The notes below the pieces were generated by a model. The model made no database searches. It saw only the letters and a list, made by a program, of their open reading frames with translations, and was not told where the DNA came from. A DNA stretch of 64,000 nt, taken from positions 1 through 64,000 of the IMG/VR virus record IMGVR_UViG_3300030098_002339; one strand, 5' to 3'. This document shows, in pieces, positions 34,391 through 64,000 of this stretch. The position numbers were made by a program, and so were the translations under genes. The stretch comes from a virus. How positions within the stretch are numbered: position 1 is the stretch's first letter; every line of letters starts with the position of its first letter.

Positions 34391-34391
34391 T

Positions 34392-41732: not shown

Positions 41733-41780
41733 CCTATTCTAGGAGCTCAATATACGTCAACCAACAAGGAGGAACGTTAC

Positions 41781-42773: not shown

Positions 42774-42779
42774 AACACA

Positions 42780-43721: not shown

Positions 43722-43737
43722 TAACTAAATAACTGTT

Positions 43738-43774: not shown

Positions 43775-43829
43775 CTAACAATGAAGTCTTGAGAGAAGGT
43801 TAAAGGCGGAACATTAAAGGAATATAAAC

Positions 43830-44177
43830 ATGAGAACATTAAACGACTATTTTTTACATGCAGCAATCGCAGATATTAGTACAGCATCATCAACATTCGT
43901 GCCTGTACCTGATGGAGGCAAAGTAATAAAAATTATAACTGCTCTTCAAGGAGCAATTGGAACAGCTAATGGCGGAATTTCTTTCGAAATTGGTGGTACA
44001 GCAATAACTGGTGGCGGGATTACAGTAACACAATCTGGATCTGCTGCTGGGGATGTTGATACAGCAGAACCAACTGCAGCTAATGACGTTGCTGAAGATG
44101 GAACTATTGAAATGATAACTGACGGAGCTTCTAGCAACGCAGTTAAACTTAATGTAACATTCGTTATAAGAAGATAA
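43830..44177 (+). CDS. small head/decoration protein
   Basis: 115 residues with beta-strand alternation (GGKVIKIITALQGAIGTANGG, ISFEIGGTAITGGGITVTQ). Ribosome binding site aaggaat. Located between capsid and neck genes. Likely a capsid-decorating or stabilising protein. Its stop codon flows into the 77-bp repeat. Confidence 0.6.
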   Translation: MRTLNDYFLHAAIADISTASSTFVPVPDGGKVIKIITALQGAIGTANGGISFEIGGTAITGGGITVTQSGSAAGDVDTAEPTAANDVAEDGTIEMITDGASSNAVKLNVTFVIRR

Positions 44178-44252
44178 TTTAAATCGGTAAATGTTCCTGG
44201 AACGTTCTGGGAACATTACCAAAACATAAGGAGAACAAAATATGAACTATGG
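44176..44252. repeat. 77-bp exact direct repeat, copy 2
   Basis: Same 77 bases as 1-77, differing again from base 44253. In this copy the base before the repeat is the t of the taa stop of the preceding gene. Marks the junction at which the sequence of block A is taken up again by its diverged copy. Confidence 0.95.
44186..44220 (+). promoter_or_regulatory. hairpin before the tail block, copy 2
   Basis: Identical to the hairpin at 11-45 and here seen in full context, 8 bases after the stop of the head protein gene. See that entry for pairing. Confidence 0.55.
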
Positions 44253-44520
44253 TTTAAGACATGGAACTGTGCATAAGCTAACTTCTGGAAGTTCATCTTC
44301 TGCAAGTTCAGCTTTTTCAGCTAATATAGAATATATAAGAGTTGTAGGCACTATTGCTTGTCATATACATATAGCAGTATCACCAACAGCAACTACAAGT
44401 ACTACTTATTTACCTGCAGGAGAAGTTGAAGTTATTAAAGTGTCAGCTGGAGAAAAGATTGCAGTATTAAGAATTGGTGGTTCTGACGGAGAATTATACG
44501 CTACAGAATTAACTGAATAA
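44242..44520 (+). CDS. small neck/head-tail protein, copy 2
   Basis: 92 residues; MNYGLR start as in the first copy, after which they diverge strongly (REVTLEKVAT versus HGTVHKLTSG). Shares the ribosome binding site within the 77-bp repeat. Same proposed neck or head-surface role. Confidence 0.8.
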   Translation: MNYGLRHGTVHKLTSGSSSSASSAFSANIEYIRVVGTIACHIHIAVSPTATTSTTYLPAGEVEVIKVSAGEKIAVLRIGGSDGELYATELTE

Positions 44521-44858
44521 TGGGTAAAGTAAGAGCAACCGAATGGAATGCTGATGCTAGTAGAACTCGTTATATACAAGAGTCTGATGGCAAACTAACA
44601 GTTAATAATCAGCAAAACTTAAATCCTTTATTAGAAAGGAATAAGAAACTTTATACTCATAATGATGGCTATACAGCCTCAAGAGATATGAGACGGATTG
44701 CTAGTGTCCCTCCAATCATACTACAGATTTGGACTAAAGAATATAATGGGACTAATAATTGGTGGGCTTTACCTAAAGAAACACAAAAAAAAATAATGAG
44801 AACTAAACTCAACAGTAGTGATTTTAGATACTTTAAAACTTCTGAAGGAAGATTATAA
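44520..44858 (+). CDS. conserved neck protein, copy 2
   Basis: 112 residues, 19 differences from the gene at 342-680 counted by eye, with the core VPPIILQIWTKEYNGT unchanged. Single-base overlap with both neighbours. Adaptor-associated role inferred. Confidence 0.8.
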   Translation: MGKVRATEWNADASRTRYIQESDGKLTVNNQQNLNPLLERNKKLYTHNDGYTASRDMRRIASVPPIILQIWTKEYNGTNNWWALPKETQKKIMRTKLNSSDFRYFKTSEGRL

Positions 44859-45529
44859 TGGCATTAAATACTTATGCAGCTTTAAAAACAGCTATCGCTA
44901 ATTGGTTAAATCGAAGTGATTTAACAGATGAGATCGCTGATGATTTTATTAAACTTACAGAAGCTGATTTCAATTCAAAATTAAGAATAAGACAGATGGA
45001 ACAAATAGATACAATAACTATTGATTCAGAAACTGAAACTGTTCCTACTGGTTTTATTGGAGTTAGATCATTTTATATTTTATCAAGTGATACTAAATAT
45101 ACTTTAGAATACATTACACCCCATAATTTATTTGAAATAAGAGGAGGTTCTAGAACTGGTAGACCTCGTTCTTATACTATTGAGGCAGACAATGAAACAG
45201 AACAATTCAGATTTGGTCCTAGTCCTGATACTACTTACACTGGTTATTTATCATATTATAAAAACTTTGAATCTCTTAGTTCCTCTAGTGCCAACTCAAG
45301 TAATTATATTTTAAGCAATCATCCTGGAATCTATTTGTATGGTAGTCTTTACCATGCATCCAATTTTATTGGAGGAATAGATCCAGAACAAAAACAGAAT
45401 TGGTTACAAATGTACATCGCAGCTCTTGAAAGATGCGAGAATAACGATAAACAAGATAACTATGGTGGAGCACCTGTAGTTCAAAGAACAGATGTGCAAA
45501 CTGATTTATCTTTCTATAGGCGGAAATAA
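44858..45529 (+). CDS. SU10-type phage adaptor protein, copy 2
   Basis: 223 residues, identical length to the first copy and with only scattered changes (for example SSDTKYTLEY for SASTKFPLEY). Same adaptor inference. Confidence 0.75.
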   Translation: MALNTYAALKTAIANWLNRSDLTDEIADDFIKLTEADFNSKLRIRQMEQIDTITIDSETETVPTGFIGVRSFYILSSDTKYTLEYITPHNLFEIRGGSRTGRPRSYTIEADNETEQFRFGPSPDTTYTGYLSYYKNFESLSSSSANSSNYILSNHPGIYLYGSLYHASNFIGGIDPEQKQNWLQMYIAALERCENNDKQDNYGGAPVVQRTDVQTDLSFYRRK

Positions 45530-46974
45530 TGCAAGTACCTTTTGGAGAATGGTTACCTGATATACCTGATCATTTAAATAAAGGAGCTACAACTGCAACT
45601 AATGTATTCCCTGCAGCAGTTAGCTATAAACCATTTAAAGCATCACAGCAAAAATCTAATGCTTTAGATAGTCAATGCTTTGGTGCATTTTCTACAAAAG
45701 ACAATAGTGCAAACGTCTATACTTTTGCAGGAACAAAATCAAAATTATACAAATTATCTGGCGAAACATTTTCAGATGTAAGTCAAGCCAGTACTACATA
45801 CAATGCAGGAGCTGATAACTTCTGGTCATTTTCTAACTTTGGAACAACAGTTGTTGCTTCCAATGGAGAAGATACTCCACAAAAATTTGTAGTAGGAACT
45901 TCTAGTGTATTTGCAGATCTAGGTGGTTCCCCACCTATTTTTACATTTTCTGCAGTGATTAGAGATTTTCTTGTAGTAGGAAGAATTAAAACTGTTAAAA
46001 ATAGAGTTCAATGGTCTGGCATTAATGATGTTGAAACATGGACATCAGGTACTAAACAATCTGATTATCAAGACTTAGCAGATGGTGGTGAGATTACAGG
46101 TATAGTCGGAGGCGAGTATGGTTATATATTTCAAGAAAACCAAATAACTCGTATGGACTATGTGGGTGGTACAACAGTATTTAGATTTTCAGTTATATCT
46201 AAAAACAGAGGTGCTATCTTTGCTAAAGCAATAACACAAGTAGGTAAAAGAGTTTTCTTTTATGCTCAAGATGGTTTCTTTGAAATTGATGGTGAAACTA
46301 TTAGACCAATAGGACAACATAAAGTTAATGATTATTTTGAAAGTAATTTATCTGCAGGCTATCAACAAAATATTATAGCTTCTACAGATCCATTAAATCA
46401 TTTAGCAATATGGTCTTATCCTAGTACTGCTGCTACAACAGGAGTTCAAGATCGTTTACTTATTTATAATTATTCTGTTAATAGATGGTCTGTAGTAGAA
46501 ACAGCTGCTGAAATGATTTTTTTACAATTTTCAGAAGCTTATACAGTTGATACATTAGATAACGTATCAAATAGTTTGGATGATTTAAATGTATCATTTG
46601 ATTCTAGATATTGGTTAGGTGGAGTTGTTAATTTTGCAGGTTTTGATGGTGATCATAAACTTATTCAATTTGATGGAGATACTTTAGCAGCAACAATTGA
46701 AACAGGAGAAATAGAACCATCACCTGGAAGACGATCAACTGTAACAATGGTTAGACCAATAGTAGATGGAACATCTACAGCACGAGTAACAAGTCGTGCA
46801 AGAGCAGCAGATTCAGGAACAAGTACTAGCTATGCTAGTTTGCAAACAAATGGAGATATACCTGTTAGATCTTCTGGAAGGTATCATAAAGTTGGAGTTG
46901 CTATAGCAGCAGCTGCATCTTGGAATGATGCTCAAGGAGTAGATTTAATAGCAGTATCAGCAGGTAATCGATGA
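45529..46974 (+). CDS. tail nozzle-like protein, copy 2
   Basis: 481 residues, same length as the first copy; the first 200 residues differ at only a few positions and the divergence grows towards the C-terminus (LNVSFDSRYWLGG, RSTVTMVRPIVDG). Same nozzle inference; the C-terminal half would be the exposed, host-facing part. Confidence 0.75.
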   Translation: MQVPFGEWLPDIPDHLNKGATTATNVFPAAVSYKPFKASQQKSNALDSQCFGAFSTKDNSANVYTFAGTKSKLYKLSGETFSDVSQASTTYNAGADNFWSFSNFGTTVVASNGEDTPQKFVVGTSSVFADLGGSPPIFTFSAVIRDFLVVGRIKTVKNRVQWSGINDVETWTSGTKQSDYQDLADGGEITGIVGGEYGYIFQENQITRMDYVGGTTVFRFSVISKNRGAIFAKAITQVGKRVFFYAQDGFFEIDGETIRPIGQHKVNDYFESNLSAGYQQNIIASTDPLNHLAIWSYPSTAATTGVQDRLLIYNYSVNRWSVVETAAEMIFLQFSEAYTVDTLDNVSNSLDDLNVSFDSRYWLGGVVNFAGFDGDHKLIQFDGDTLAATIETGEIEPSPGRRSTVTMVRPIVDGTSTARVTSRARAADSGTSTSYASLQTNGDIPVRSSGRYHKVGVAIAAAASWNDAQGVDLIAVSAGNR

Positions 46975-47120
46975 GTGATACAATAGATATAGATAATATA
47001 AGATTTGCATTTTCAGAAACTGACTACTTTCAAAGAGAAGTAGAAAGATCTGTTAATGAATTAATACTAAAAAACAACCAGGAAAATGACAAAGCATTTA
47101 TCTGGTTTATGGGAGGATAA
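46971..47120 (+). CDS. 49-residue acidic protein, copy 2
   Basis: Same start overlap (atga) and length as in copy 1, with a single amino-acid change visible (DKAFIWF for DKTFIWF). Conservation confirms a functional short gene. Confidence 0.75.
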   Translation: MSDTIDIDNIRFAFSETDYFQREVERSVNELILKNNQENDKAFIWFMGG

Positions 47121-47123
47121 TAA

Positions 47124-49412
47124 ATGGCAGGATCATATATAGGCAAATACGATACAACAGCTGCTAATAATACTGCAACAGGCACAGGTTCGGTTAGTAT
47201 AGCTGAAGGTATGCTGCCTTCTAATGTTAATAATGCTATGCGTGATATTATGGCGGACATTAGGCAATGGTATAATTCAGCTGAATGGATTGAATACGGA
47301 GATGGAGCAGGATCATATACACCTGCTTATGCATCAGGAACAAGTTTTACAATTGCAGGTGCAGATGTAACTTCTGCTTACCATGTAGGTAGAAGAGTTA
47401 AAGCAGTAGGTTCGTCTACAGGAACAATTTACGGATCAATTACTGCTACAAGTTTTTCAACAAATACAACAGTTACAGTTTCTTGGGATTCAGGTTCACT
47501 ATCTAGTGAATCTTTAACAATTTATATTGGTATTACAAGTGCAACAAACACTTCAATGCCAGAAACTCCATCTATTACTGGAGATTATACATTAGATGTA
47601 TCAGGCGATATTATCCTAGATGCTGATGGCGGAGATGTATTCTTTAAAGATGGTGGTACTACCTTTGGAAGTGCTACTAATTCTTCAGGTAATTTAATTA
47701 TTAAATCAGGTACAACAACAGCTTTAACATTTAGTGGAGCTAATGCTACCCTTGCTGGAGATTTAACAATCTCTGGTGATGATTTAACAATGGGTACTAA
47801 TACTTCAGGAATGTTATTAGTAGCTGATGGTACAAATTTTAATCCAGTAGCAGTTAGTGGAGATGTTACTATGGCTTCTAATGGAGCAGTAACAATTGCT
47901 TCAACAGCTGTAGAAAATTCTATGTTAGCTGGATCTATTGCTGATAGCAAATTATCTACAATTTCAACAGCAGATAAAGTTGCTGGTGGAGCTATTCAAA
48001 TTGATAGTGGTACTGATGGTACATCTATTACATTAGCAGATACAGATAAATTTTTAGTTGATGATGGTGGTACAACAAAATATGTTAATGCCTCTCAAAT
48101 TAATAGTTATGTAAGTGCTTCCGTTGCAGCAGACGATCTTGGATCTGGTGATGCCGCAATTAATCTAACAACTTCATCTGGCAATATTACAATTGATGCA
48201 GCAGCTAATGATAGTGATATTATATTTAAAGGAACAGATGCAACTTCCGATATTACAATGCTTACATTGGATGGAAGTGAAGCAGGACACGCAACTTTTA
48301 ATAGTCACGTATCTGTTGGTGGATCTAATAACGAATTAAGATTTTATGAAGGTGCAAACTATATAGGTTTTGAAGCACCCGCTTTATCAGGAGATCAAAT
48401 ATGGGTATTACCTGCAGCAGATGGATCTTCGGATCAAGTATTAAAAACAGATGGCTCAGGTAATTTAGGTTGGGCTTCTGTTACAGGTACAATTACTGCT
48501 TTAAATAATCAATCAGCTAATCGATTAACTACAATCGGTTCAACAACAACACAGTTAGATGGTGAAGCAAATTTAACTTTCACAGGTTCAGCATTAACTT
48601 GTATAGGAACAATTACAGTTGGTGTAGATGACACAGGACATGACGTTAAGTTCTTTGGTGCAACAGCTAGTAGATACTGGTTATGGGATGAATCAGCAGA
48701 TGGTGTAGTACAACAAGGTACATTAACTGTTGGAGTTGACGATACTGGATATGATGTAAAATTCTTTGGAGCTACAGCAAGTGCTTATATGCAATGGGAT
48801 GAATCAGAAGATGATTTAATCCTAGGTGGTGCTGCAAGAATAGTTGTCCCAGAAGGACAATTAGTATTAGGTAGTACAGCTGTAAGTTCAACTGCAGCAG
48901 AATTAAATTTATTAGATGGTGTTTCAGGATTAGTACAAGCAGATCTAACTAAATTAGCAGCAGTTAATTCTACAGACGCAGAACTTAATATATTAGATGG
49001 TTCAGCTAAATCTACATCTTCAATTACATTAGCAGATACTGATGCTTTAATTGTTATAGATGGGAATACAACAAAACAAATTCCTGTTTCAGATATTAAA
49101 ACATACAATCCAGGTGGAACTGCATGGCAAGCTGTTGTTACAGGTAATACAACAATGGTTTCTGGTAGAGGTTATTTTGTTAATACAACTTCAGCTGCAA
49201 TTACAATGACATTACCTGCATCTCCTTCATTAGGAGATAGTGTAACGGTTATTGATTATGCAGGAACAGCAGATTCAAATAATATTACGATAGGAAGAAA
49301 CTCTCAAAAAATTCATGGAGCTTCTGAGGATTTAACAGTAGCAACAGAACGAGCTGCCTTTACATTAGTATTTACAGATTCTACTCAAGGTTGGCTCTTA
49401 ACGGAGAAATAA
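47124..49412 (+). CDS. tail fibre, copy 2, different middle
   Basis: 762 residues. N-terminal ~170 and C-terminal ~90 residues match the copy-1 fibre, while the middle is unrelated: LTVGVDDTGYDVKFFGATAS units and AELNLLDGV repeats replace the IADDAI repeats. Classic exchange of the host-facing part between conserved ends. Confidence 0.8.
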   Translation: MAGSYIGKYDTTAANNTATGTGSVSIAEGMLPSNVNNAMRDIMADIRQWYNSAEWIEYGDGAGSYTPAYASGTSFTIAGADVTSAYHVGRRVKAVGSSTGTIYGSITATSFSTNTTVTVSWDSGSLSSESLTIYIGITSATNTSMPETPSITGDYTLDVSGDIILDADGGDVFFKDGGTTFGSATNSSGNLIIKSGTTTALTFSGANATLAGDLTISGDDLTMGTNTSGMLLVADGTNFNPVAVSGDVTMASNGAVTIASTAVENSMLAGSIADSKLSTISTADKVAGGAIQIDSGTDGTSITLADTDKFLVDDGGTTKYVNASQINSYVSASVAADDLGSGDAAINLTTSSGNITIDAAANDSDIIFKGTDATSDITMLTLDGSEAGHATFNSHVSVGGSNNELRFYEGANYIGFEAPALSGDQIWVLPAADGSSDQVLKTDGSGNLGWASVTGTITALNNQSANRLTTIGSTTTQLDGEANLTFTGSALTCIGTITVGVDDTGHDVKFFGATASRYWLWDESADGVVQQGTLTVGVDDTGYDVKFFGATASAYMQWDESEDDLILGGAARIVVPEGQLVLGSTAVSSTAAELNLLDGVSGLVQADLTKLAAVNSTDAELNILDGSAKSTSSITLADTDALIVIDGNTTKQIPVSDIKTYNPGGTAWQAVVTGNTTMVSGRGYFVNTTSAAITMTLPASPSLGDSVTVIDYAGTADSNNITIGRNSQKIHGASEDLTVATERAAFTLVFTDSTQGWLLTEK
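48606..48828 (+). repeat. 111-bp tandem repeat inside fibre, copy 2
   Basis: A unit encoding GTITVGVDDTGHDVKFFGAT starts at 48606 and recurs at 48717 as GTLTVGVDDTGYDVKFFGAT, 37 codons later. Absent from the copy-1 fibre. Confidence 0.75.
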
Positions 49413-49415
49413 TAA

Positions 49416-50384
49416 ATGGCTGATTATAAAGCTATCAAGGGCTGGACTATTCAAACAGTTTCTAGTGATCCTAGTAATCCTATTAAAGGACAGGTGTGGT
49501 ATAATTCAACACTTGGAAAATTAAGAGGTGCTAAATTAGCTGCTGGTGCTTGGAGCACAGGAGCTAATGTAGGAACAGCAAGAGCTAATCCAGAAGGTGC
49601 TGATAGATCAACACCATCCGCAGGTTTAATTTTTGGTGGAAGAACAAGTGGATCAGCAGGTGGTGGAGATACAGAAGAATATAATGGAACAGCTTGGTCT
49701 GAACAAAATGATTTAAATGTTAATCGTTGGCGAGGTGGTGGTGCTGGAACTCAAACAGCAGGATTTAGTTTTGGAGGATCAACAGGACCTACAGCTCACG
49801 TTGGAACAGCAGAGACCTATGATGGTACAAGCTGGACTGAAGTTGGCGATCTTACTTCTACTACCAGACCTAATACAGTAGGATTTGGATTACAAACAGC
49901 AGCTTTATGCGTTGCTGGATATGGTGTAGCGGTTGTAGAACAATATAATGGTTCTTCTTGGTCAGAAGTCGGAGATTTAAATACTGCTAGAGGTTCTATG
50001 GCAGGATGCGGATCAACAACAGCAGGACTTGTAGCACAAGGAGAATCTCCAGGTGGTAATATAGATTCAGTAGAACAATGGGATGGTTCAAGCTGGACTG
50101 AAGTTGCAGATTGTAATACTGCTCGAAATCAACCAGGTGGAGGTGGAACATCTACTTCTTCTATATGTTTTGGTGGCGATCCTTCTGCTTTAACAGAAAA
50201 CTGGGATGGTTCTTCTTGGACTGAAGTGGGTGATATGTCTACAGCAAGAGGTCGTGCCGCAGCAGCAGGAACATCGAGTTCTGCATTTTGTGCAGCAGGT
50301 GCAACACCAGGAGCAACGACTGGAGTTAATAATACAGAAGAATGGGATCAATCAGTATCTGGAAATAATTGGGATACAACATAA
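49416..50384 (+). CDS. kelch-like repeat protein, one propeller, copy 2
   Basis: 322 residues with leader MADYKAIKGWTIQTVSSDP and collar GQVWYNSTLGKLRG, then about six repeats (YNGSSWSE, DLNTAR, TTAGLVAQG). Leader conserved but repeat loops differ from the copy at 5023. One six-bladed propeller expected. Confidence 0.75.
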   Translation: MADYKAIKGWTIQTVSSDPSNPIKGQVWYNSTLGKLRGAKLAAGAWSTGANVGTARANPEGADRSTPSAGLIFGGRTSGSAGGGDTEEYNGTAWSEQNDLNVNRWRGGGAGTQTAGFSFGGSTGPTAHVGTAETYDGTSWTEVGDLTSTTRPNTVGFGLQTAALCVAGYGVAVVEQYNGSSWSEVGDLNTARGSMAGCGSTTAGLVAQGESPGGNIDSVEQWDGSSWTEVADCNTARNQPGGGGTSTSSICFGGDPSALTENWDGSSWTEVGDMSTARGRAAAAGTSSSAFCAAGATPGATTGVNNTEEWDQSVSGNNWDTT

Positions 50385-52168
50385 TGGCAGATTACAAAGA
50401 ATTAAAAGGAAAACATATTTTAAGTATCGCATCAGACTTGGACAACGCTGCAGGTGAAGGACAAATTTGGTATAATACTACATCTGGAGACTACAAGACG
50501 ATTGTTAAAGCGGCTGGAACTTGGTCAACTAGTAATAGTTTGAACACAGGTAAAGAAAAATCTTTTGGCATAGGAATTCAAACAGCTGCTCTTACTATAA
50601 GTGGAGAAGGTACAGCCACAGTTGAACAATATGATGGTACTTCTTGGTCGGAAATTGCAGATGTTAATACAGCAAGAGAACATGGCGCAGGTTGTGGAAC
50701 TGTAGCCTCAGGTCTTTTTTTCGGTGGACAACCTCCTGTTACAGGAAAAACAGAATCCTGGAATGGAACCTCATGGACAGAAACTGGAGATTTGAATACC
50801 TCTCGAAGAGGAGGAGGTGGATCAGGACCAAGTAGCTCTGCTGCTCTTGCAGCTACAGGTTATGATGGTTCTAATAATGTTACAAATGTTGAAAGTTGGA
50901 ATGGATCAAGCTGGACTGAAGTGGCTGATGTTAATACTGCACGAAGAACAGGAGCAAGTGGAGGAACGAGCAGTACCGCTTCAATGATAGTAGGAGGCGG
51001 AGGACCTGGTAGTGGAACAGCAAATGTCGAAGTATGGGATGGAGCAAGCTGGACTGAAGTAACTGATATTAATACTGCTAGAGAAGAATTTAAAGGTGCT
51101 CCAGAGACTTCTGCAACAAATTTGGTTTTTGGAGGTGCTCATGATCCAGGTCCTACAGCTGCTACAGAATATTATGATGGATCTAGTTGGTCAGAGGTCG
51201 GAGATTTAAATGAAAATAGACAAAGATTATCAGGAACAGGAACAACGATTTTAGCATTGGCTTCTGGAGGAGGAACTCCTCCCTCTCCCCTTGTTACTGT
51301 TGAAGAATGGGATTGGACATCTACCCTTGCTGCAGGTGCATGGGCATCGGGTGGAGCAGCAAATAATCCAAGAGGTAAAGGTGGAGGAGCTGGAATTCAA
51401 ACTGCAGCTGCAGTTTTTGGTGGTGTCGTTAGTGATACCCCTAAATCAAATACAACAGAAGAATATGATGGTTCTTCGTGGACAAATACAGGAAATTTAA
51501 ATACAGGTCGACATGCTGGAGCTGGTTTTGGAGTACAAACAGCAGCTTTTTATTGTGCGGGAGAATCAACAGCTTATGTTGATAATGTTGAATCTTACAA
51601 TGGTTCAACCTGGTCCGAAACAACAGATTTAAGTACAGCTCGTGGAGGTGCAGAAGGTAATGGTACAACAACAGCAGGAATGGTAGTTTGTGGTGCAGTA
51701 AACCCGCCTAATTTTTCAACTCTTAACGAACAATGGAATGGTTCTGCTTGGTCAGAAGATGCAGATACTAATACAGGTAGAAATGAGGGTGGATGTGTAG
51801 GCACATCAACCGCTGCTTTATATTTCGGTGGTTTTACTCCAGATTTAACAGCAAACTCAGAAGAATGGAATGGAACAGCATGGGCAGAAGGAAACAATGT
51901 AAATAGAGTTATTGGACAATCAGGTGATTTTGGCATTCAAACTTCAGCGATTGCTGCTGGAGGAAGTCCAGGAGATGTAGCTAGCACAGAGGAATATGAT
52001 GGTACTTCTTGGGCTGAAGTTGCAAATTTATCTACAGCAAGAAATATACTTATTGGAAATAATAATAGCACTGATTCTACTCTAGGATTAGTTATGGGAG
52101 GAGATCCAGGCGTTACTACTACAGAAGAATGGACACAATCACAAAACATTAAGACAATAGCAGACTAG
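50384..52168 (+). CDS. kelch-like repeat protein, two propellers, copy 2
   Basis: 594 residues from the ATG overlapping the previous stop; an in-frame ATG 15 bases earlier is inside the previous gene. Leader MADYKELKGKHILSIASD, collar GQIWYNTTSGDYK, two repeat runs divided near residue 310 by TSTLAAGAWASGG. Compared with copy 1, the second half lacks a full collar. Confidence 0.75.
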   Translation: MADYKELKGKHILSIASDLDNAAGEGQIWYNTTSGDYKTIVKAAGTWSTSNSLNTGKEKSFGIGIQTAALTISGEGTATVEQYDGTSWSEIADVNTAREHGAGCGTVASGLFFGGQPPVTGKTESWNGTSWTETGDLNTSRRGGGGSGPSSSAALAATGYDGSNNVTNVESWNGSSWTEVADVNTARRTGASGGTSSTASMIVGGGGPGSGTANVEVWDGASWTEVTDINTAREEFKGAPETSATNLVFGGAHDPGPTAATEYYDGSSWSEVGDLNENRQRLSGTGTTILALASGGGTPPSPLVTVEEWDWTSTLAAGAWASGGAANNPRGKGGGAGIQTAAAVFGGVVSDTPKSNTTEEYDGSSWTNTGNLNTGRHAGAGFGVQTAAFYCAGESTAYVDNVESYNGSTWSETTDLSTARGGAEGNGTTTAGMVVCGAVNPPNFSTLNEQWNGSAWSEDADTNTGRNEGGCVGTSTAALYFGGFTPDLTANSEEWNGTAWAEGNNVNRVIGQSGDFGIQTSAIAAGGSPGDVASTEEYDGTSWAEVANLSTARNILIGNNNSTDSTLGLVMGGDPGVTTTEEWTQSQNIKTIAD

Positions 52169-52213
52169 ACAAATGGAATTTAAACAAATATAAAAGGAAA
52201 AAGGAGGAGCAAT

Positions 52214-52507
52214 ATGGCAAATGACATCTTTAATTACTGCGTAGCAACGAACACTGGAAAGGGTTTCATCACACATGATGATAGCCGAAGATTCTGGATT
52301 AGTGGCAATCCTGGTAATGTATGGGTTGCAACAGACTGTGTAGAATCAAGACATTGGATTGCAAGAAACAATGGTGTTTCTAAAACTAAAGAAGAAGCAC
52401 AAGCTATTGTAACAGCAGAAGTTGAAGCAGCACAAGCAGCTTGGGATGCTTTATCTGATGAAGAAAAAGCATTAACATCAAGACCAGGCGACATAACTCT
52501 TCCCTAA
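52214..52507 (+). CDS. small protein among kelch genes, copy 2
   Basis: 97 residues, homologue of the gene at 6033 (core GNPGNVWVATDCVESRHWIA), with perfect aaggagg before the start. Here it lies after the second kelch gene, not the first, so the gene order of the two copies differs. Confidence 0.75.
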   Translation: MANDIFNYCVATNTGKGFITHDDSRRFWISGNPGNVWVATDCVESRHWIARNNGVSKTKEEAQAIVTAEVEAAQAAWDALSDEEKALTSRPGDITLP

Positions 52508-52516
52508 AGGAATTAA

Positions 52517-54343: not shown

Positions 54344-54372
54344 TATTTAAAAAAAGAGTATAAAACCTCTAT

Positions 54373-55059
54373 ATGAAAGAGAAAAGAAACATACACGAAC
54401 TTATTGTAAAAGAAGAACCTCATCTTCATGAAATATTAGATCCTGCACAAGTTGCTAAATTTAAAGAATTAACAAACGAACTTAGAGATACCTGGACAAA
54501 GAAACAAATGTTCAGAACAAAAACAGAGATGGAATTTTCTGTTTTAAATGATGCTAAATATCCAACCAATGCTGCTAAGTATTGGCAATGTGTGAGAGAA
54601 CAAAATACTCACATGGAAAACTTAATGCATTTATCCTTTGATGCTCGTAAAAATGATATTGAAATAAAACAAAAATTAAAAGAACTAGAAGAAGAAAAAG
54701 ACGAATTAAAAAAAGAACTCATACAAGTAGAAATAGATGAAAAAACTTATAGTAAAGCTAGTATGCAACTTGTTGCAGCTCATCGTATGAGAGAAGTTAC
54801 TGAATGGTCTAACTTTAAAAAGATTTATAATGATGGTACTTTTGATGATAAGAATGTAGATACACACCAACTATTATCATACAAAAAGATCATGAAGAAT
54901 AGAAAGAATACATTAACTCCTGGATCTTCACAACCTGAAGTCTTTAATGTATTAGGTCAATTGCAAACAATTGAACGGGTGGAAGAAGAACGAAAAGCCC
55001 TTGGACACGAAAAGAAAAAGGCTATAAGTGAAACACCTAAATACGGAAAACAAGGCTAA
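54373..55059 (+). CDS. coiled-coil protein, tail module, copy 2
   Basis: 228 residues, closely matching the gene at 10034 in the TKKQMFRTKTEM and TPGSSQPEVFNVLGQL regions, with a similar central coiled coil. It now overlaps the sulfotransferase gene by 32 bases instead of the oxygenase. Confidence 0.75.
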   Translation: MKEKRNIHELIVKEEPHLHEILDPAQVAKFKELTNELRDTWTKKQMFRTKTEMEFSVLNDAKYPTNAAKYWQCVREQNTHMENLMHLSFDARKNDIEIKQKLKELEEEKDELKKELIQVEIDEKTYSKASMQLVAAHRMREVTEWSNFKKIYNDGTFDDKNVDTHQLLSYKKIMKNRKNTLTPGSSQPEVFNVLGQLQTIERVEEERKALGHEKKKAISETPKYGKQG

Positions 55060-55822
55060 ACAAATCTACTTTCTTTGTGCGATGCCAAGATCAGGGAATA
55101 CCTTATTTGCATCACTCATGAATCAAAATCCAGAGATTGCTGTTACCGCCAATAGTATCACCTTGGAAATTATGAAAGATTTATTTCTTCTTAAAAAAAT
55201 AGATGCCTTTCAAAATTTTCCTGATGAACAATCTTTAGATAATGTTATGGATGAAGTTTATAATCTTTATTATAAACATTGGAATTATAAAGTTATTATT
55301 GATCGAGGACCTGTTTGTACATCTAGCAATCTAAAGATCATGCAAAAACATTTTAAACAACCTATACGATGTATTGTATTAGTTAGAGATTTATTAGATG
55401 TTTTAGCTTCTTATATTAAATGGTTTGAAACTGAGCCAACTGCTTTTTTAAATCAATTAAAAACAATAGATGAAAAATTAAGTCGACTTATGCACAAGTA
55501 TGGAGCAATAGCAAAAGGACTTTTATCTATTCAGTATTTACTTCAGCATCCTGAGATGGCTGTGTTTATTAAGTATGATGATTTAGTTGTTAATCCAGAA
55601 CAAGAATTAAGAAAAGTCTACACTTTTTTAAATCTCCCCTATTTTCCGCATAAGTTTATTGATCTAGATCAAATTACCGTGAATGGTTTACAATATAATG
55701 ATAGTATTACAGGTAAAAATATGCACACCATTAGAACACAAAATGTTCACAAGGTTGATAATCCATATAAGAATATGATACCAGAGAGATTTATTAAGGA
55801 ATATGGACACATCCGATTTTAA
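55028..55822 (+). CDS. P-loop sulfotransferase, only in copy 2
   Basis: 264 residues. 5'-phosphosulfate loop PRSGNT at 20-25 (YFLCAMPRSGNTLFASL) and 3'-phosphate motif RDLLDVLASY at 120-129, with a matching KYDDLVVNPEQELRKVY region, mark a PAPS-dependent sulfotransferase. Would transfer sulfate to a carbohydrate, peptide or small molecule. It replaces nothing in copy 1: the neighbours simply abut there. Gain in one lineage or loss in the other cannot be decided. Confidence 0.8.
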   Translation: MKHLNTENKAKQIYFLCAMPRSGNTLFASLMNQNPEIAVTANSITLEIMKDLFLLKKIDAFQNFPDEQSLDNVMDEVYNLYYKHWNYKVIIDRGPVCTSSNLKIMQKHFKQPIRCIVLVRDLLDVLASYIKWFETEPTAFLNQLKTIDEKLSRLMHKYGAIAKGLLSIQYLLQHPEMAVFIKYDDLVVNPEQELRKVYTFLNLPYFPHKFIDLDQITVNGLQYNDSITGKNMHTIRTQNVHKVDNPYKNMIPERFIKEYGHIRF

Positions 55823-56462
55823 ATTTATCTGGTTAGGGCAAACTATTTTAAGATATAAAGTTCCTTTAGATGTTTTTAATACTCTTAATGGAATTTACGA
55901 AACTAATTTTGTTAATCTTCCTGATGCTCATAAACAACTTGTGGGGAAAATAAGAAAAGAAAATTCTTTGTTTTTTGGTGGTGCTCCCAATAATAAAATG
56001 CACCGACATAATTTACTTCCTCCTTATGTTTTAAATTGGTTTGAAAGTAAATTTAGACATTATTTAGATTTTAATAAAATACATCCTTATACACTTCATA
56101 TGAACTCTATATGGATTAATGAGATGAAAGCAGGAGAATACAATCCTATTCATATTCATCAAGGCACGATTTATACAGGACTTTCATCAGTCATGATGCT
56201 TAAACTTCCTAAAGATATGGGTCCTGAATATGCAAGACCTGATACTCCTTTAAATGGTAAGTTACAAATCGTAGGTGCAGCTAATGGTCAATTTGTAAAA
56301 TCTGACTATTCACCTATTGCAGAAGAAAGAGATTTTTATATTTTTCCTTATGACATGAGGCATTGTGTTTATCCTCATACCAATCCTAATGCCATAAGAC
56401 GCACACTTGCAGCCAACATGGATGTAGAGTATAACCCTGTTAGTACAAGGACAGCAGGATGA
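55803..56462 (+). CDS. Fe(II)/2OG oxygenase-like protein 1, copy 2
   Basis: 219 residues, homologue of 10702-11361 with YNPIHIHQG and DMRHCVYPH preserved and the C-terminal Arg pair present. Begins inside the sulfotransferase gene (20-base overlap). Confidence 0.65.
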   Translation: MDTSDFKFIWLGQTILRYKVPLDVFNTLNGIYETNFVNLPDAHKQLVGKIRKENSLFFGGAPNNKMHRHNLLPPYVLNWFESKFRHYLDFNKIHPYTLHMNSIWINEMKAGEYNPIHIHQGTIYTGLSSVMMLKLPKDMGPEYARPDTPLNGKLQIVGAANGQFVKSDYSPIAEERDFYIFPYDMRHCVYPHTNPNAIRRTLAANMDVEYNPVSTRTAG

Positions 56463-57043
56463 TACCTACAGAACCTACTTGGAGAAGTTATATAGCTGAA
56501 ACAACTCAGCCTATCTTTTCACCTAAACAATGCCAGATGGTTATTGATAAGGGCATGAGTTTAAAAAAAGAAACAGCTGCAGTAGGTATGGGTAATCCCA
56601 AAGGAAGTGGTATTGATCCTGACAAAAGAATTACAACAATTAGTTGGATTCCTTTTAAAGAAATGCCAGAGATGTATCGTGATATTGAAAAGACTATGCT
56701 TCAAGCAAACAATAATCACTTTGGTTTTGAAGGAATGCGATTAACTGAACCTGGACAATTTACACATTATCTTACAGGTGGATTTTATGAATGGCATATG
56801 GATAATGATGTAGTAGGAAAACATCAGCCTCCTGTTCGTAAAATCTCAATGACACTTCTGTTATCTGATCCTTCTACCTTTGAAGGTGGTGAATTAGAGT
56901 TTATGAGTAAAGGTAAGACTGCAAAGTTAAAACAAGGTCAAGCTATTTTCTTTGCGAGTTGGTTACAGCACCGAGTTAAACCCGTTACTAGAGGTGAGAG
57001 AAAATCTTTAGTCATGTGGTTTGGAGGTCCTTCCTTTAAATGA
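56459..57043 (+). CDS. PKHD-type hydroxylase-like protein, copy 2
   Basis: 194 residues, same triad as copy 1 (EWHMDNDVVG, QHRVKPV, RKSLVMW). Only this oxygenase of the set has a complete textbook HxD...H...R arrangement in both copies, which suggests activity is under selection. Confidence 0.8.
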   Translation: MIPTEPTWRSYIAETTQPIFSPKQCQMVIDKGMSLKKETAAVGMGNPKGSGIDPDKRITTISWIPFKEMPEMYRDIEKTMLQANNNHFGFEGMRLTEPGQFTHYLTGGFYEWHMDNDVVGKHQPPVRKISMTLLLSDPSTFEGGELEFMSKGKTAKLKQGQAIFFASWLQHRVKPVTRGERKSLVMWFGGPSFK

Positions 57044-57621
57044 TTACTGAGCATCATTTTCCAACAATCATTTATATTAAAGATCTACCGAATGCTCTTC
57101 AGTTGAATCAATATTTAGAACAAAAGATTATTCAATGGAGCCAACAGGATAAAGGCGAACAAAAAACTAATGCAGGTGGATGGCATAGTAAAACGGATAT
57201 GAATAAAAAAGAAGAATACAATCCGTTAACAAAAGAACTCTTTAATATGCAAGATGAGATTTATCAAAAAGAGCATTTGTCTTTAAAACCTGTACTTGGA
57301 AATATGTGGGCAAATATTAATTATCCAAAATGTTTTAATAGACCTCATATTCATCCTAACTCATTATTCTCAGGTGTTTATTTTATTAAGACTCCTCAAA
57401 AATCTGGTAATTTGATGGTATACGATCCAAGACCAGGAGTTCAAATGGCAATGCCTAGTCGTAAAAAGGGAGATCTTCCTCCTGCATCGTGGAGAGAAGT
57501 ACATTACGAACCTGTTGCAGGAAGATGTATTATGTTTCCTTCTTGGTTATGGCATGAAGTAAAACCTAATGAAAGTAATGATATAAGAATATCTGTATCG
57601 TTTAATTTTTTACAACGATGA
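57040..57621 (+). CDS. 2OG-Fe(II) oxygenase-like protein (TIGR02466 type), copy 2
   Basis: 193 residues, DPRPG and HIHPNS motifs as in 11939-12553 and WLWHEV for the second His. Shorter linker near residue 40. Same inference. Confidence 0.75.
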   Translation: MITEHHFPTIIYIKDLPNALQLNQYLEQKIIQWSQQDKGEQKTNAGGWHSKTDMNKKEEYNPLTKELFNMQDEIYQKEHLSLKPVLGNMWANINYPKCFNRPHIHPNSLFSGVYFIKTPQKSGNLMVYDPRPGVQMAMPSRKKGDLPPASWREVHYEPVAGRCIMFPSWLWHEVKPNESNDIRISVSFNFLQR

Positions 57622-58262
57622 GTTTCAAAGAAAAGAAATATGAAGTTATTCCCAATGCTATTTCTTACGAACTCGCTAATTTTGCTTTTAATTACTTTTT
57701 ACTTAAAAGAGATGCTGTAAACTGGATGTATCAGAATAATTACATATCAGAATTTACACCAGGATTTGGTACTTGGAAAGATAAACAAATTCCTAATACC
57801 TATTCCTGTTATGGTGATTTTTTCATGGAAACTTTAATGATGAAAGTATTACCTATTATGCAAAAGTTTACAGGTTTAAATGTTATACCAACGTATACTT
57901 ATACTAGAGCATATAAAAAGGGAGATATTTTAAAAAGGCATAAGGATAGACCTAGCTGTGAAATATCCACAACCTTACATTTAGGTGGAGAACCTTGGTC
58001 TATTTATATAGATCCTACGGGATCTAATAACGTGATTGATGAATATAAAAATATTCATAAACCTAATGCTCCTAAAGGAGTACCCGTTGATCTTAACGTA
58101 GGAGATATGTTAATATATAGCGGATGTGATTTAGAACATTGGAGAGAACCTTTTGAAGGTAATGTCTGTGTTCAAACATTTCTTCATTATAATAATGCAG
58201 ATGGAAAATTTGCTTATAATAATAAATTTGATAAACGACCAATGTTAGGAATACCAAAATGA
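57618..58262 (+). CDS. 2OG-Fe(II) oxygenase-like protein 4, copy 2
   Basis: 214 residues, same length and motif set (KRHKDRPSCEIS, LEHWREPF) as 12550-13194. Overlaps the preceding gene by four bases. Confidence 0.7.
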   Translation: MSFKEKKYEVIPNAISYELANFAFNYFLLKRDAVNWMYQNNYISEFTPGFGTWKDKQIPNTYSCYGDFFMETLMMKVLPIMQKFTGLNVIPTYTYTRAYKKGDILKRHKDRPSCEISTTLHLGGEPWSIYIDPTGSNNVIDEYKNIHKPNAPKGVPVDLNVGDMLIYSGCDLEHWREPFEGNVCVQTFLHYNNADGKFAYNNKFDKRPMLGIPK

Positions 58263-58489
58263 AACAATTACTATTAGCACTACAAAGACAATACGAAGCT
58301 AAAATATTAGAAGCAGATTATCAGATTAAGCATTATAGTTCTCATAATTTAGCTGTTAATGCTCATTCAGATATTATAAATGAACTTGATAAATGGGTAG
58401 ATCGTAAAGCCTTTTATGAAGGTAAGTTAAAACAAGTTATAACTTATATGCCTAAAGAAGATAAGAAAGATAAAAAGGATGGCAAATAA
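58259..58489 (+). CDS. small helical protein, copy 2
   Basis: 76 residues, homologue of 13191-13418 with matching LYESK/QYEAK and ADYQIKHYS stretches. Not recognised. Confidence 0.65.
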   Translation: MKQLLLALQRQYEAKILEADYQIKHYSSHNLAVNAHSDIINELDKWVDRKAFYEGKLKQVITYMPKEDKKDKKDGK

Positions 58490-58805
58490 TTATAAATTCA
58501 CTGGTGTAGCATTAGCTACAACTTCTGAAACAACTTTATTAACAGCAGCAGCTGATACTACAGTTGTTATAAGATCTATTAGAGTTACTAATAATACTTC
58601 TAATACACCGACTATCTCATTAGATTTATCTGATGATTCAGCAAGTACTGAGTATACAATATTAAAAACTCAAACACTTGCAGCTAATACAGGTGTAGAA
58701 TTATTATCAGTACCTTTAGTCCTAGAAGAATCTGATGCACTAAAAGCAACAATGAGTTCAACAGATTCAACACATATAGGAATAAGTTACTTAGTAATTT
58801 CGTGA
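58479..58805 (+). CDS. small beta-rich virion-type protein, copy 2
   Basis: 108 residues, near-identical to 13408-13734. Among the most conserved genes of the block. Confidence 0.65.
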   Translation: MANNYKFTGVALATTSETTLLTAAADTTVVIRSIRVTNNTSNTPTISLDLSDDSASTEYTILKTQTLAANTGVELLSVPLVLEESDALKATMSSTDSTHIGISYLVIS

Positions 58806-59236
58806 TCCAATTAATTAACATACCAACCAAAAGTGTTGATGAGGCTTGGGGGGTAGTTAGAACCGATATAGCCAATGCTTTAACACGTTCTAACGGATAT
58901 GCTTTATCAGAGCATATTAAGAAATGGATTATAGAAGAAAAGATGCAGCTCTGGATTCTTTGGGATCAAGAAGCTGACAAAGAAAAGTATTACGGAGTTG
59001 TTGTAACTGAAGTAATACAACGACCATTACAACGATGCCTGAATATTAAAATAATGACAGGAAGACATCGTGAGAAATGGCAACATTTAATCAAACATAT
59101 AGAAGACTTTGCTTGGCAACAAAATTGCGATTTACTCGAATTAGTTGCTAGACCTGGGTGGAAGAAAATTCTGAAACCCTTTGGTTATAAAGAAAGTCAT
59201 GTATTGTTAGAAAAGAAAAAAAAGGAGAATAAATAA
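58802..59236 (+). CDS. GNAT-like protein, copy 2
   Basis: 144 residues, homologue of 13731-14162; contains the 86-base stretch (59093-59178) identical in both copies. Confidence 0.55.
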   Translation: MIQLINIPTKSVDEAWGVVRTDIANALTRSNGYALSEHIKKWIIEEKMQLWILWDQEADKEKYYGVVVTEVIQRPLQRCLNIKIMTGRHREKWQHLIKHIEDFAWQQNCDLLELVARPGWKKILKPFGYKESHVLLEKKKKENK

Positions 59237-59237
59237 T

Positions 59238-59972
59238 ATGTCAATCGGAGGCGGAGGAAGTGGCGGTGGAACACAAACTACTGTAGCTTCTACACAACCA
59301 TATGGTCCAGCGGAACCTGCTTTAGGGCAGATTCTGTCTGAAGCACAAACTATATATGGGCAAGGTCCAGCAGCAGCTGGATATGTTGCTCCTACAACTC
59401 AAACCCTAGAAGGTATAGCAGCTCAAGAACAAATAGCTAATGCTGCTAATCAGCAAATATTAGGTACTATTCAAGGTCAGTATACGAATCCTTTTTTATC
59501 TCCTTTGATCGCACAATCTGCTCAAGATGTGTATTCTAATGTAGCTGGACAATTTTCTGGTATGGGTAGAACACCAACAAGTCCAATGGCACAACAGGCT
59601 GTTATAGGTCAAGTTGCACAAAAAGCATTACCTTATGCATTTGGTCAATTAGAACGAGAACGAGCAAGACAACTTCAAACAGCTCAAAGAGTACCAAGTT
59701 TAACTGCTGTTGGCGGACAATTAGAAGATATACAAAGACAACAACAAATGGCTCCAAGTGATGCGTTAGCTCAATATTATAATGTTGCAGCTCCCATTGC
59801 TTTTGGGCTACCAACACAAAACGTACAAAATCAACTACCAGACGCTAACCCAATAACTATGGCTGCAGGCGGAGCAATGACAGGAGCAGCTTTAGGATCT
59901 ATGTTTCCTATGGGAGGAGGCATGGGTGCACTTATTGGTGGCGGTATGGGATTATTAGGAGGATTATTATAA
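59238..59972 (+). CDS. internal virion protein, Gly/Ala-rich, copy 2
   Basis: 244 residues, homologue of 14164-14922; the FSGMGRTPTSPMAQQAVIGQ segment is unchanged and the C-terminal glycine zipper shorter and altered (GGGMGALIGGGMGLLGGLL). Confidence 0.65.
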   Translation: MSIGGGGSGGGTQTTVASTQPYGPAEPALGQILSEAQTIYGQGPAAAGYVAPTTQTLEGIAAQEQIANAANQQILGTIQGQYTNPFLSPLIAQSAQDVYSNVAGQFSGMGRTPTSPMAQQAVIGQVAQKALPYAFGQLERERARQLQTAQRVPSLTAVGGQLEDIQRQQQMAPSDALAQYYNVAAPIAFGLPTQNVQNQLPDANPITMAAGGAMTGAALGSMFPMGGGMGALIGGGMGLLGGLL

Positions 59973-60070
59973 TGGATAAATTTTTAGACACAATAGAACA
60001 TTACTGGACTAATCACAAAAAAGCTGTGATTATAGTTGCAGTAATAATCGTATTAGCAATCATAGCGTAA
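59972..60070 (+). CDS. 32-residue membrane peptide, copy 2
   Basis: MDKFLDTIEHYWTNHKKAVI, then aliphatic residues to the end (VAVIIVLAIIA). Same length and overlap as the copy at 14922. Confidence 0.65.
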   Translation: MDKFLDTIEHYWTNHKKAVIIVAVIIVLAIIA

Positions 60071-60081
60071 GGAGAATATAA

Positions 60082-61020
60082 ATGTCAGGAGGCGGAGGCG
60101 GCAACGGCAATGGCGGAGGCGGAGGACCACCAGGTGGTGGTGATCCAGGAATGTCTTATTCAGCTCCAACAGGTCGTCAAGATAGAGAAGGAGCTGCATC
60201 ATCTCAAACATATTCAGCACCAGATAGAGGTGGACCTCCAGGAGGAGGAGATCCAGGTATGACTTATACTGCACCTGCTCCAACACCAGATAGAAATACA
60301 TATGATGAGTGGGCTACAGTTATTGATACACCTGAAGTTATACCTACTGTTACATCTGAAAATGTATCTAAAGAACCTGTGTATGCTGATAGAATCCAAA
60401 GAATATCTACTGGAGAAGAACCTGGTTATAGAGCACAAGATTCTCAACCTTTTGGTTTAAGTAAAGAAGAGGCATATAGACAAGGTAAAATTACAGTAGA
60501 TCAAAGAGATGCTGATCCTGTATTAACAGCACCAGAAGAAAGAGATTTAACAAGAGATTTAACCTTTGCAGAGCATTGGAATTTAGCACCAGACGCTTTA
60601 AAATATTCACCTACCCTTAGACTATTATGGGCTACAGGTGCAAATTTAGGAGAATGGTCTAAAAGACAAGGTGCTAATGTTTGGGATTGGGGAACAGGAG
60701 AATCTAATATTTCACCTGCTCCTGATAGAGGAGATGGACAAGGTGCAACAGGTGCAGTATCTGCAGCACAATCTAATTACATAACTTCTGGACAAACATC
60801 TCCAAGTAATTCTGTTGCTGCTAATTGGTATCAAAGTTTAGGAACAGGAAGTGCATCAGGTAATAGTGGTGCATTTAATCTAGCTTCTGAATATGCAGCT
60901 GCACAACAAAAAGTAAAACAAACACTAGGAACACCTAGTGCTGTAGGAATGTTAGCTGTAAATGATAGTCCATTTTTTGACTTCTTACAGAAACATAATT
61001 TGACAAAAGGAATATTATAA
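60082..61020 (+). CDS. internal virion protein with Gly/Pro repeats, copy 2
   Basis: 312 residues. The N-terminus is unlike the copy-1 gene: Gly-rich with a repeat GGPPGGGDPGM(S/T)Y twice. From residue ~170 (FAEHWNLAPDALKYSPTLRL) the two are homologous and the C-terminus (SNSVAANWYQSLG) is conserved. Confidence 0.65.
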   Translation: MSGGGGGNGNGGGGGPPGGGDPGMSYSAPTGRQDREGAASSQTYSAPDRGGPPGGGDPGMTYTAPAPTPDRNTYDEWATVIDTPEVIPTVTSENVSKEPVYADRIQRISTGEEPGYRAQDSQPFGLSKEEAYRQGKITVDQRDADPVLTAPEERDLTRDLTFAEHWNLAPDALKYSPTLRLLWATGANLGEWSKRQGANVWDWGTGESNISPAPDRGDGQGATGAVSAAQSNYITSGQTSPSNSVAANWYQSLGTGSASGNSGAFNLASEYAAAQQKVKQTLGTPSAVGMLAVNDSPFFDFLQKHNLTKGIL

Positions 61021-61021
61021 T

Positions 61022-62080
61022 ATGGGAATGTTCGATATATTCGCAAATTGGGGTATGCAAAACCCTGATGAAAGAAAGAAATCTTTAGAAGAAATTGCTA
61101 GAGGTTCACAATATGGTACAGGTTTACAAAACAAAAGTGATTTTAAAGATAGTTCTAGTTTAGTTTCTAGATATAATTTAAGAGATAGACAAAATCCAAA
61201 TGTTGTACCTATGCAAAAAAAACAATCAATTTACCCAGATGCCATAACAACAGGTGGTCAAGGAACTCAACAAGGTGATATAGGATTTTTACAAAGACTC
61301 TCTAATTTAGCTGGAGTAGATATGGATAAAGCTGCAGCAATGTGGAAAGACAAAGGTGGCTTTGAAGGACTAATGTCTAATCCTGCCTTTACTATGGGCT
61401 TAGCATTTATGCAAGCTGGAGCTAATGGTAAAACTTTAGGTCAAGATGCACTAAACAATGTTGTTAAAGCAGCAGGAATATCTGCTGAATTTAAAGATAG
61501 AATAGCAGCTAGAAAACAAGCACCTATACAAGCTACTGCTGGAGATATAGCAGAAGTTAAAGATTTACTTCAAACTATGAAAATAGACGAACCTAATATG
61601 TGGGAAAAAGCATTTGGTTGGATTAAAGGTGATAATGTTACTGCTAAATATGATGAAGCAGCTGAACAAATTGCTGTTGAATATCAAAAAGAAATTGCAA
61701 TACTTCAGAAAAATAATAAATCGGGTAAACCACTTGTTATTGATACACCTTTAAAGAAAAGAATTATTAAAAAAGTTCTTAAATCAGGTAAAATTAAACA
61801 TAAAAAAGGATGGTTTGGTCCAGTAACTAAAGGTACTATACAAGGTACATCTGAAGATCCTTTTAAAGCAAGAGGTGGTCCAGTTAAAGCTAATAAAGCC
61901 TACATTGTAGGAGAAGAAGGACCAGAAATTATGATAGCTAAATCATCAGGTAAAGTATTATCTAACGATGATTCACAAATATTTGCTATGCTATTAGCAG
62001 CAAACCCACAATTACAAAAAGTATCTAAAGCGAGAGCTGAGAAGATTATGAGATCTCGTTTCCCTGAATACTTTGAATAG
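61022..62080 (+). CDS. internal virion protein with VGE-GPE motif, copy 2
   Basis: 352 residues, homologue of 15965-16972 with diverged first ~90 residues and then conserved regions (KDKGGFEGLMSNPAFTMGL, KANKAYIVGEEGPEIMI). Same inference. Confidence 0.65.
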   Translation: MGMFDIFANWGMQNPDERKKSLEEIARGSQYGTGLQNKSDFKDSSSLVSRYNLRDRQNPNVVPMQKKQSIYPDAITTGGQGTQQGDIGFLQRLSNLAGVDMDKAAAMWKDKGGFEGLMSNPAFTMGLAFMQAGANGKTLGQDALNNVVKAAGISAEFKDRIAARKQAPIQATAGDIAEVKDLLQTMKIDEPNMWEKAFGWIKGDNVTAKYDEAAEQIAVEYQKEIAILQKNNKSGKPLVIDTPLKKRIIKKVLKSGKIKHKKGWFGPVTKGTIQGTSEDPFKARGGPVKANKAYIVGEEGPEIMIAKSSGKVLSNDDSQIFAMLLAANPQLQKVSKARAEKIMRSRFPEYFE

Positions 62081-62088
62081 GAGACATA

Positions 62089-62586
62089 ATGATTAAAATA
62101 TTCCATCCCAGAGGACTGAAAGAACTTATCTGGAAAGCAGGAAGAACTACTGAAACAGTAGCTTTTAAAAGATTAATTAAAAAACATCCTAAGCAAGGCA
62201 TTAGAGCATTTACAATTGCTCAACGCAAAGGATTAAAAAAAGTTCAAGCTCTTGGTAAAAGACATGGAGTTGAAGGACTTGGTGTATCTTTAAGAGGAAA
62301 AAGAGTTAAACCTTCTAGATATAAACCCACACATTTTGATGATCCTAATAAGGCTTATGCTGATCTACATCAAATTAAAGGTAGAGCTTCAGCAGAAGCT
62401 AAAGAAACATTACATGGATGGGGATTTAGACCAAGAAATCCTAAATTTTACAAAGTTTCAGAAAGAAGAATAGATCCTTTAACAGGAAGAGCTTCTCTTG
62501 TTAGAGTTCGTAAAGGACCACAATATATAAAACATAAAAATTTATCTGCTTGGATCAAAAGTGGTAGAAAAACTTATAAAGATTAA
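62089..62586 (+). CDS. basic internal protein, copy 2
   Basis: 165 residues, Lys/Arg-rich (RAFTIAQRKGLKKVQALGKR). The similarity to 16973-17482 is weak compared with adjacent genes, suggesting replacement or fast evolution. DNA-binding possible. Confidence 0.6.
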   Translation: MIKIFHPRGLKELIWKAGRTTETVAFKRLIKKHPKQGIRAFTIAQRKGLKKVQALGKRHGVEGLGVSLRGKRVKPSRYKPTHFDDPNKAYADLHQIKGRASAEAKETLHGWGFRPRNPKFYKVSERRIDPLTGRASLVRVRKGPQYIKHKNLSAWIKSGRKTYKD

Positions 62587-64000
62587 TGGCTAATGATTTT
62601 AATGTTAATGAATTTAAATTAAAAGACCCAGTACGTAGTATACCCGATGGTTTAAAAGAACCAGTAAAGGATTCAACGCCTGGGTTTTTTCAGTCTCTTC
62701 GTAATCCATATCACCTATGGTTAGAAGAATCTTTACCAGCATCACTCTACCAATGGATGACTGGCAATACAAAAAAGAAACAAGCACAAGAAGCACTCAA
62801 TTACATTCGTAATAATCCTCAGCAACAAGGATCTAAAATTTATCAGGAAGCTGAAAGAAAACTACAAAGATTTGGTTATCTTTTAGATGATGGTCCTATG
62901 TCCATAGACATGAAGGAAGTTGGTAATATGATTAAAGCCAACCCTAAACTCTTTGGAGCTGAATTAGTTAATATGATTATGGCAGATCCTTGGTTATTAT
63001 TTATGCCTCTTGGATGGCATAGATTAGGTAGAGGAGTTGTTAATGGTATTAGATTAAAACGAGCTAAGAATCTTAGCATGACTACAGTAGCAGCTAAGAA
63101 AGCTGATAACATGGCTGATATTAAAGTTGGAGCTATGGCTACACTCGGAATACCTTTTGCATTCTCAACTGCATGGCAATTAGGAGAAGATGCTACATTA
63201 GATCCTAAAAGAACTACAGTAGAAACTACATTAGGAGCTACAGCAGGAGCTTTAATCTCAGTAGGTTTTGCAGGCACAGGAGCTTTAGCACAAAGATTAA
63301 CTCAAGTTCCTAAAAATAGAGTTTTACAAATACAAAACCAAGTTTTAAATAAACATGGAATTAATCCTGAGAAATTATTAGACTATAATGAAAATGGTAT
63401 TTTCCGTTCTGTTGATGAACTTATAGACGAGATACAAAAACAAACTAGAATTATTACAGATCCTAAAAAATTTCAAGTTATTAAAGCAGATATGACTGCT
63501 GCCTTAAGACAGCTGAATGAACATGGAAGAGATATGTCTTTTAATGCTGCTCTTAAAAGAGGTGGTACTCTTGCAGCTATAGGTGCAACTGCACAATTCT
63601 TAACAGCTGATGATGAGAAATTATTAGCAACAGCTAAGGGTGCAGGAGCTGGTGCAGCTATATATTTAGCTGGAAGATTCCTTACAAGTAAACTTAGGCA
63701 AATGCCTAAAGACTTTGATGCTGCTACTATATCAGCAGAAGCTACATTAGATGCAGCTAAAATGAGTACAGTTAAATTAAACTCTGCTGCATATGAACTA
63801 GCTAATAAGATTAAACAAAATATACCTGATGCAATAGATTCTAGACGTAAGATATTTTATTACTTAACTAGAGCTAGAGTTGATAGAAAAAACTTTAGAT
63901 ATGATGGTAAATTAAAACCTATTGCTGATTCAGAATTATCTGCTAGAGAATTAGATGCAGCTAAAGCTATTAGAAAAACATTTGATAGTTTAGAGCAATC
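62586..64000 (+). CDS. large internal/ejection protein, copy 2, cut by window end
   Basis: The first 471 codons of the second copy of the 1073-residue protein; starts MANDFNVNEFKLKDPVRSIP in the overlap with the previous stop. Hydrophobic segments lie in the same places as in copy 1. Runs beyond the window. Confidence 0.7.
   Translation, partial: MANDFNVNEFKLKDPVRSIPDGLKEPVKDSTPGFFQSLRNPYHLWLEESLPASLYQWMTGNTKKKQAQEALNYIRNNPQQQGSKIYQEAERKLQRFGYLLDDGPMSIDMKEVGNMIKANPKLFGAELVNMIMADPWLLFMPLGWHRLGRGVVNGIRLKRAKNLSMTTVAAKKADNMADIKVGAMATLGIPFAFSTAWQLGEDATLDPKRTTVETTLGATAGALISVGFAGTGALAQRLTQVPKNRVLQIQNQVLNKHGINPEKLLDYNENGIFRSVDELIDEIQKQTRIITDPKKFQVIKADMTAALRQLNEHGRDMSFNAALKRGGTLAAIGATAQFLTADDEKLLATAKGAGAGAAIYLAGRFLTSKLRQMPKDFDAATISAEATLDAAKMSTVKLNSAAYELANKIKQNIPDAIDSRRKIFYYLTRARVDRKNFRYDGKLKPIADSELSARELDAAKAIRKTFDSLEQ

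Follow-up and report, generated by a model that had tools for sequence, protein, structure and literature searches.

Closest described systems and make-up of the record

Pelagiphages of the HTVC010P/HTVC106P type, with genomes of 34–37 kb, are the nearest named phages to the sequences evaluated here, and HTVC023P-type pelagiphages are reported to possess an oxygenase/ferrochelatase pairing similar to the one described below (PMC9599517). Kelch-repeat virion proteins have been described as well, e.g., in PhiPA3-like phages. On the methodological side, assemblers are known to tangle or join related mosaic phage genomes that have short exact stretches in common (PMC10563150). The record examined here differs from such chimeric metagenome contigs in that two whole genomes stand head to tail, being 73–87% identical in most of their matching blocks.

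The virus record in question, IMGVR_UViG_3300030098_002339, is 88,284 bp long, and the window, by which we mean the whole 64,000-nucleotide stretch that was analyzed, comprises its bases 1–64000. Comparing the record with itself revealed two units (A, 1–44175; B, 44176–88284) that are collinear end to end; when closed, A measures 44,175 bp and B about 43,934 bp (~43.9 kb). The terminase was closest to that of Pelagibacter phage HTVC106P (50.7% amino acid identity; 45–51% to named isolates), with the next best named matches mostly being HTVC010P-like pelagiphages, so both phages would be placed near, rather than inside, the HTVC010P/HTVC106P group, from whose members they also differ in having about 44 kb per unit and a terminase that is at most 51% identical. 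The units and their head gene sets are as follows.

1..44175, + strand: unit A, a complete ~44.2 kb phage genome by self-comparison, which closes on itself in contigs from other samples
44176..64000, + strand: window part of unit B, which runs on to 88284 in the record and self-closes from 44266 to 88199
38097..43721, + strand: unit A terminase, portal, scaffold and major capsid genes
82061–87673 of the record: unit B terminase, portal, scaffold and capsid set

Most of the 76 open reading frames called in unit A have a counterpart in unit B, with gene order kept, and the terminase, portal, scaffold, capsid, tail, internal-protein and most early genes are present in both (e.g., two capsid genes in the record, one per unit). 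Because head, packaging and early genes are doubled along with the tail, it is the whole ~44 kb genome that is doubled and not the tail alone. A search of the two record ends for exact terminal repeats of 20–599 bp found none, so the record is not a simple closed genome. Three unit A genes at 23733–26015 (197, 475 and 90 aa) had no detected counterpart in unit B.

The A-to-B joint and closure of each unit

We interpret the 88 kb record as an assembly chimera that joins the genomes (~44 kb each) of two related marine podovirus-like phages sampled together, each phage having one tail and ejection module and the tail differences being ordinary sister-phage divergence; we put the probability of this reading at roughly 96%. 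It draws on the collinear duplication of the whole record, on contigs that link A to A and B to B, on exact overlaps, on single-copy relatives, and on an operon that is cut at the joint, where the following features lie.

1..77, + strand: opening 77 bp of the record, identical to the 77-mer at the joint; divergence between A and B starts at base 78
67..342, + strand: unit A 91-aa protein, first A gene past the joint, with 50% identity to its B version
43830..44177, + strand: 115-aa small protein, last gene upstream of the joint, 98% identical in B at the amino acid level
44176..44252, + strand: probable false joint, 77 bp identical to window 1–77, containing an intergenic hairpin and the ribosome-binding region of the next gene
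44242..44520, + strand: unit B 92-aa counterpart of the unit A 91-aa protein

Adding to the 77 bp at the joint, the last 85 bp of the record (88200–88284) exactly match 44266–44350. In both units, the joint falls between the same pair of genes and splits a structural operon, at a position where a genome end is unexpected. Contigs from three other metagenomes (L247, L245 and L246) run from the end of A into the start of A unbroken at 99.6, 96.4 and 95.6% identity, respectively, whereas the record's own A-to-B joint matches them at only 89.9, 87.3 and 85.4%. Similarly, contig L166 joins the end of B to the start of B with 100% identity over 2,058 bp, versus 95.3% for the record's joint, so that self-closure was seen in three contigs for A and one for B. 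Furthermore, one metagenome holds A on a 26 kb contig and B on a separate 23 kb contig.

Relatives told a consistent story of single copies. Searching 15 records of 22–39 kb with the neck protein revealed a single copy in 10 (71–78% identity; records of 24–39 kb), one weak match in 2 and no match at all in 3, while none of the 15 possessed two. Each of the five relatives examined for capsid had one capsid gene, and the longest contig among the locus-search matches listed was 39,272 bp.

How the two genomes came to be joined may be read from the sequence contexts of the 77-mer. Since it is followed by an A-type gene in L245–L247 and by a B-type gene in two other contigs (L006 and L007), the population's assembly graph branches at it. 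The joining site would be this 77 bp hairpin/ribosome-binding stretch, which the population carries in identical form ahead of either alternative downstream gene: an assembler path could have left the 77-mer into A, gone round A, returned to the 77-mer and taken the B exit, then gone round B and stopped on re-entering or overlapping B's start, i.e., a figure-of-eight. Such a path would need a real molecule in the sample in which the 77-mer adjoins a B-type gene. A word length of 77 is usual for one common assembler, but the overlap at the record's end is 85 bp, so the overlaps do not single out one program or word length. Folding scores were strong for hairpins at 44186–44220 (z −4.4) and at 88136–88155 of the record (z −4.1). 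Between the 115-aa gene and the next gene, the A-type and B-type hairpins differ in sequence and are similar in position.

Other possible origins of the 88 kb record

We weighed this reading against two in which the joined molecule is real. The record is contiguous as deposited, as would be expected of one ~88 kb phage carrying two complete tail and ejection modules, either as an alternate-tail system or as a diverged whole-genome duplication. This is extremely unlikely given that terminase, portal, scaffold, capsid and early genes are present separately in each unit, that independent contigs link A to A and B to B, that short exact overlaps mark the joint and both ends of the record, and that no relative among the matches listed exceeds 39.3 kb and no tested relative has two sets. 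The specific possibility raised by the original prediction, namely that two tail sets in one genome would constitute an alternate-tail system, was accordingly rejected, as A closes on A, B closes on B, relatives are single-copy and the core genes are doubled too. None of the proteins scanned matched a switch-enzyme family (invertase, reverse transcriptase).

A different origin would be a co-infected cell in which homologous recombination at the 77 bp stretch joined A and B, such that a natural recombinant or mixed concatemer, real and transient, was then assembled. The 77-mer adjoins both A-type and B-type genes in natural contigs, which makes exchange near this site probable in the population; still, the shared word alone suffices for a graph path, and the record ends by overlapping the B start that it already contains, as expected of a graph path, so we regard an assembled recombinant molecule as exceedingly improbable. 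That the 77 bp stretch serves as a natural swap point for downstream virion-gene alleles during co-infection, with the record being an A–B recombinant molecule rather than a pure assembly error, we consider very unlikely.

Under the assembly chimera reading, the record if left uncorrected would be tallied as a two-tailed phage of 88 kb, and splitting it into two genomes removes a false alternate-tail case. Head-to-tail chimeras of moderately related phages can be difficult to detect with repeated-word checks, and such a check would probably miss this one because the two copies have few long identical stretches in common. Of lasting use are two sister marine phages with arrays of kelch propellers, which offer material on change in probable receptor-binding proteins.

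Divergence between the two tail and ejection modules

Two homologous tail and ejection modules are present, spanning about 1–20.9 kb in A and 44.2 to about 66 kb in B, so the original prediction of two complete modules holds for their presence and not for completeness within the window, where B's 1061-aa internal-protein gene is cut, ending at 65771. Their features are listed below.

680..1351, + strand: unit A neck/adaptor-like virion protein (phrog_2941)
44858..45529, + strand: unit B neck/adaptor-like virion protein, sharing 90% identity with that of A
1351..2796, + strand: unit A nozzle-like virion protein (phrog_3287)
45529..46974, + strand: unit B nozzle-like protein, 89% identical overall (100% at the N-terminus, 71% at the C-terminus)
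2924..5023, + strand: unit A tail fiber
47124..49412, + strand: unit B tail fiber, ends conserved and middle replaced
5023..9996, + strand: unit A kelch array (phrog_27227), a single-domain propeller-like protein and two double-domain ones, with an intervening 101-aa gene
49416..54343, + strand: unit B kelch array, make-up as in A, 34–39% identical
10702..13194, + strand: unit A oxygenase cluster, 2OG-Fe(II) oxygenase-like and ferrochelatase-labeled genes between tail and ejection genes
55803..58262, + strand: unit B oxygenase cluster, orthologues of the A genes
13408..20710, + strand: unit A putative internal/ejection protein genes, the last encoding a 1073-aa protein
58479..64000, + strand: unit B putative internal/ejection protein genes, the last (62586–65771) passing the window end

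A further 2OG-Fe(II) oxygenase-like gene region lies at 26127–26810. A Pfam search gave no useful assignment for the fiber and internal proteins.

Amino acid identities, counted over all alignment columns, bore out the gene-by-gene contrast that had been noticed beforehand, with conserved neck, nozzle N-terminus and small virion proteins (e.g., a 108-aa virion protein at 92%) and variable kelch proteins, fiber middle, nozzle C-terminus and internal-protein N-termini. Within the fiber, identity is 94–96% at the N-terminus, 10–28% in the middle and about 80% at the C-terminus, and the N-termini of the 311-aa and 335-aa internal proteins are at 8–28%. Per module, the share of identical residues is 0.85 for head, 0.78 for neck/nozzle, 0.38 for fiber plus kelch, 0.62 for the oxygenase cluster and 0.61 for ejection. 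The further claim that the copies differ mostly in host-facing parts is thus right among structural genes and fails beyond them: the share in non-tail regions is 0.33 (21–26 kb), 0.60 (26–31 kb) and 0.26 (31–36.5 kb), and identity drops to 41% at the portal C-terminus, where host contact is not expected. In other words, the profile is far from flat, as had been anticipated, but excess change also falls outside the predicted exposed parts.

Per-gene dN/dS ratios (NG86), with several dS values near saturation, lay at 0.06–0.13 in terminase, portal, capsid, neck and nozzle, at 0.24 in scaffold and at 0.5–0.65 in kelch and fiber. The 311-aa and 169-aa proteins gave ratios of about 1.1, which were rejected as evidence of selection given identities over all columns of only 31% and 13%, respectively.

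If A and B are two phages, one may ask whether the tail divergence stems mainly from positive selection on host range or instead from exchange of modules or ordinary rapid change. Kelch and fiber are among the most divergent structural genes, and their dN/dS stands above the 0.11–0.13 of neck and capsid; on the other hand, dN/dS remains under 1 wherever the sequences align well, non-tail accessory regions are equally or more divergent, and the fiber middle looks replaced rather than substituted, all of which makes positive selection as the main driver a doubtful proposition. The earlier view of the copies as alleles shaped by host-range selection therefore survives in part: the two sets act like alleles at a single tail locus, each in a different phage, and among the structural parts divergence is greatest in those for which host contact is expected, with positive selection itself unsupported by the kelch and fiber ratios. 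The pattern fits relaxed or diversifying evolution together with module exchange, and it would represent a sister-phage divergence with a conserved head, neck and nozzle core and a fast-changing fiber shaft and kelch proteins.

Each unit encodes one single-domain and two double-domain kelch-like proteins with regular WNGSSWTE-like motifs, and blades of about 45 aa are repeated as in kelch propellers. The unit B single-domain protein is modeled as a beta-propeller (pLDDT 92) whose best PDB matches are kelch domains (E 1.5e-16), with both phage kelch proteins and virion structural proteins among its viral fold matches. Its likeness to the kelch-repeat virion proteins of PhiPA3-like phages lies in the predicted beta-propeller and the kelch-domain fold matches, and it differs from them in belonging to phrog_27227, a family without assigned function, and in the arrays of one single and two double propellers beside the fiber gene. 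This position beside the fiber, together with their variability, suggests that the kelch proteins probably bind a host receptor. The 617-aa kelch protein had no match in a phage reference collection, and our literature search found no reports on kelch proteins in Pelagibacter phages. The fetched loci contained 201 homologous open reading frames, with some loci overlapping and some genes counted twice, which indicates that kelch proteins of this kind are widespread. A small gene of 97–101 aa precedes the second kelch gene in A and the third in B.
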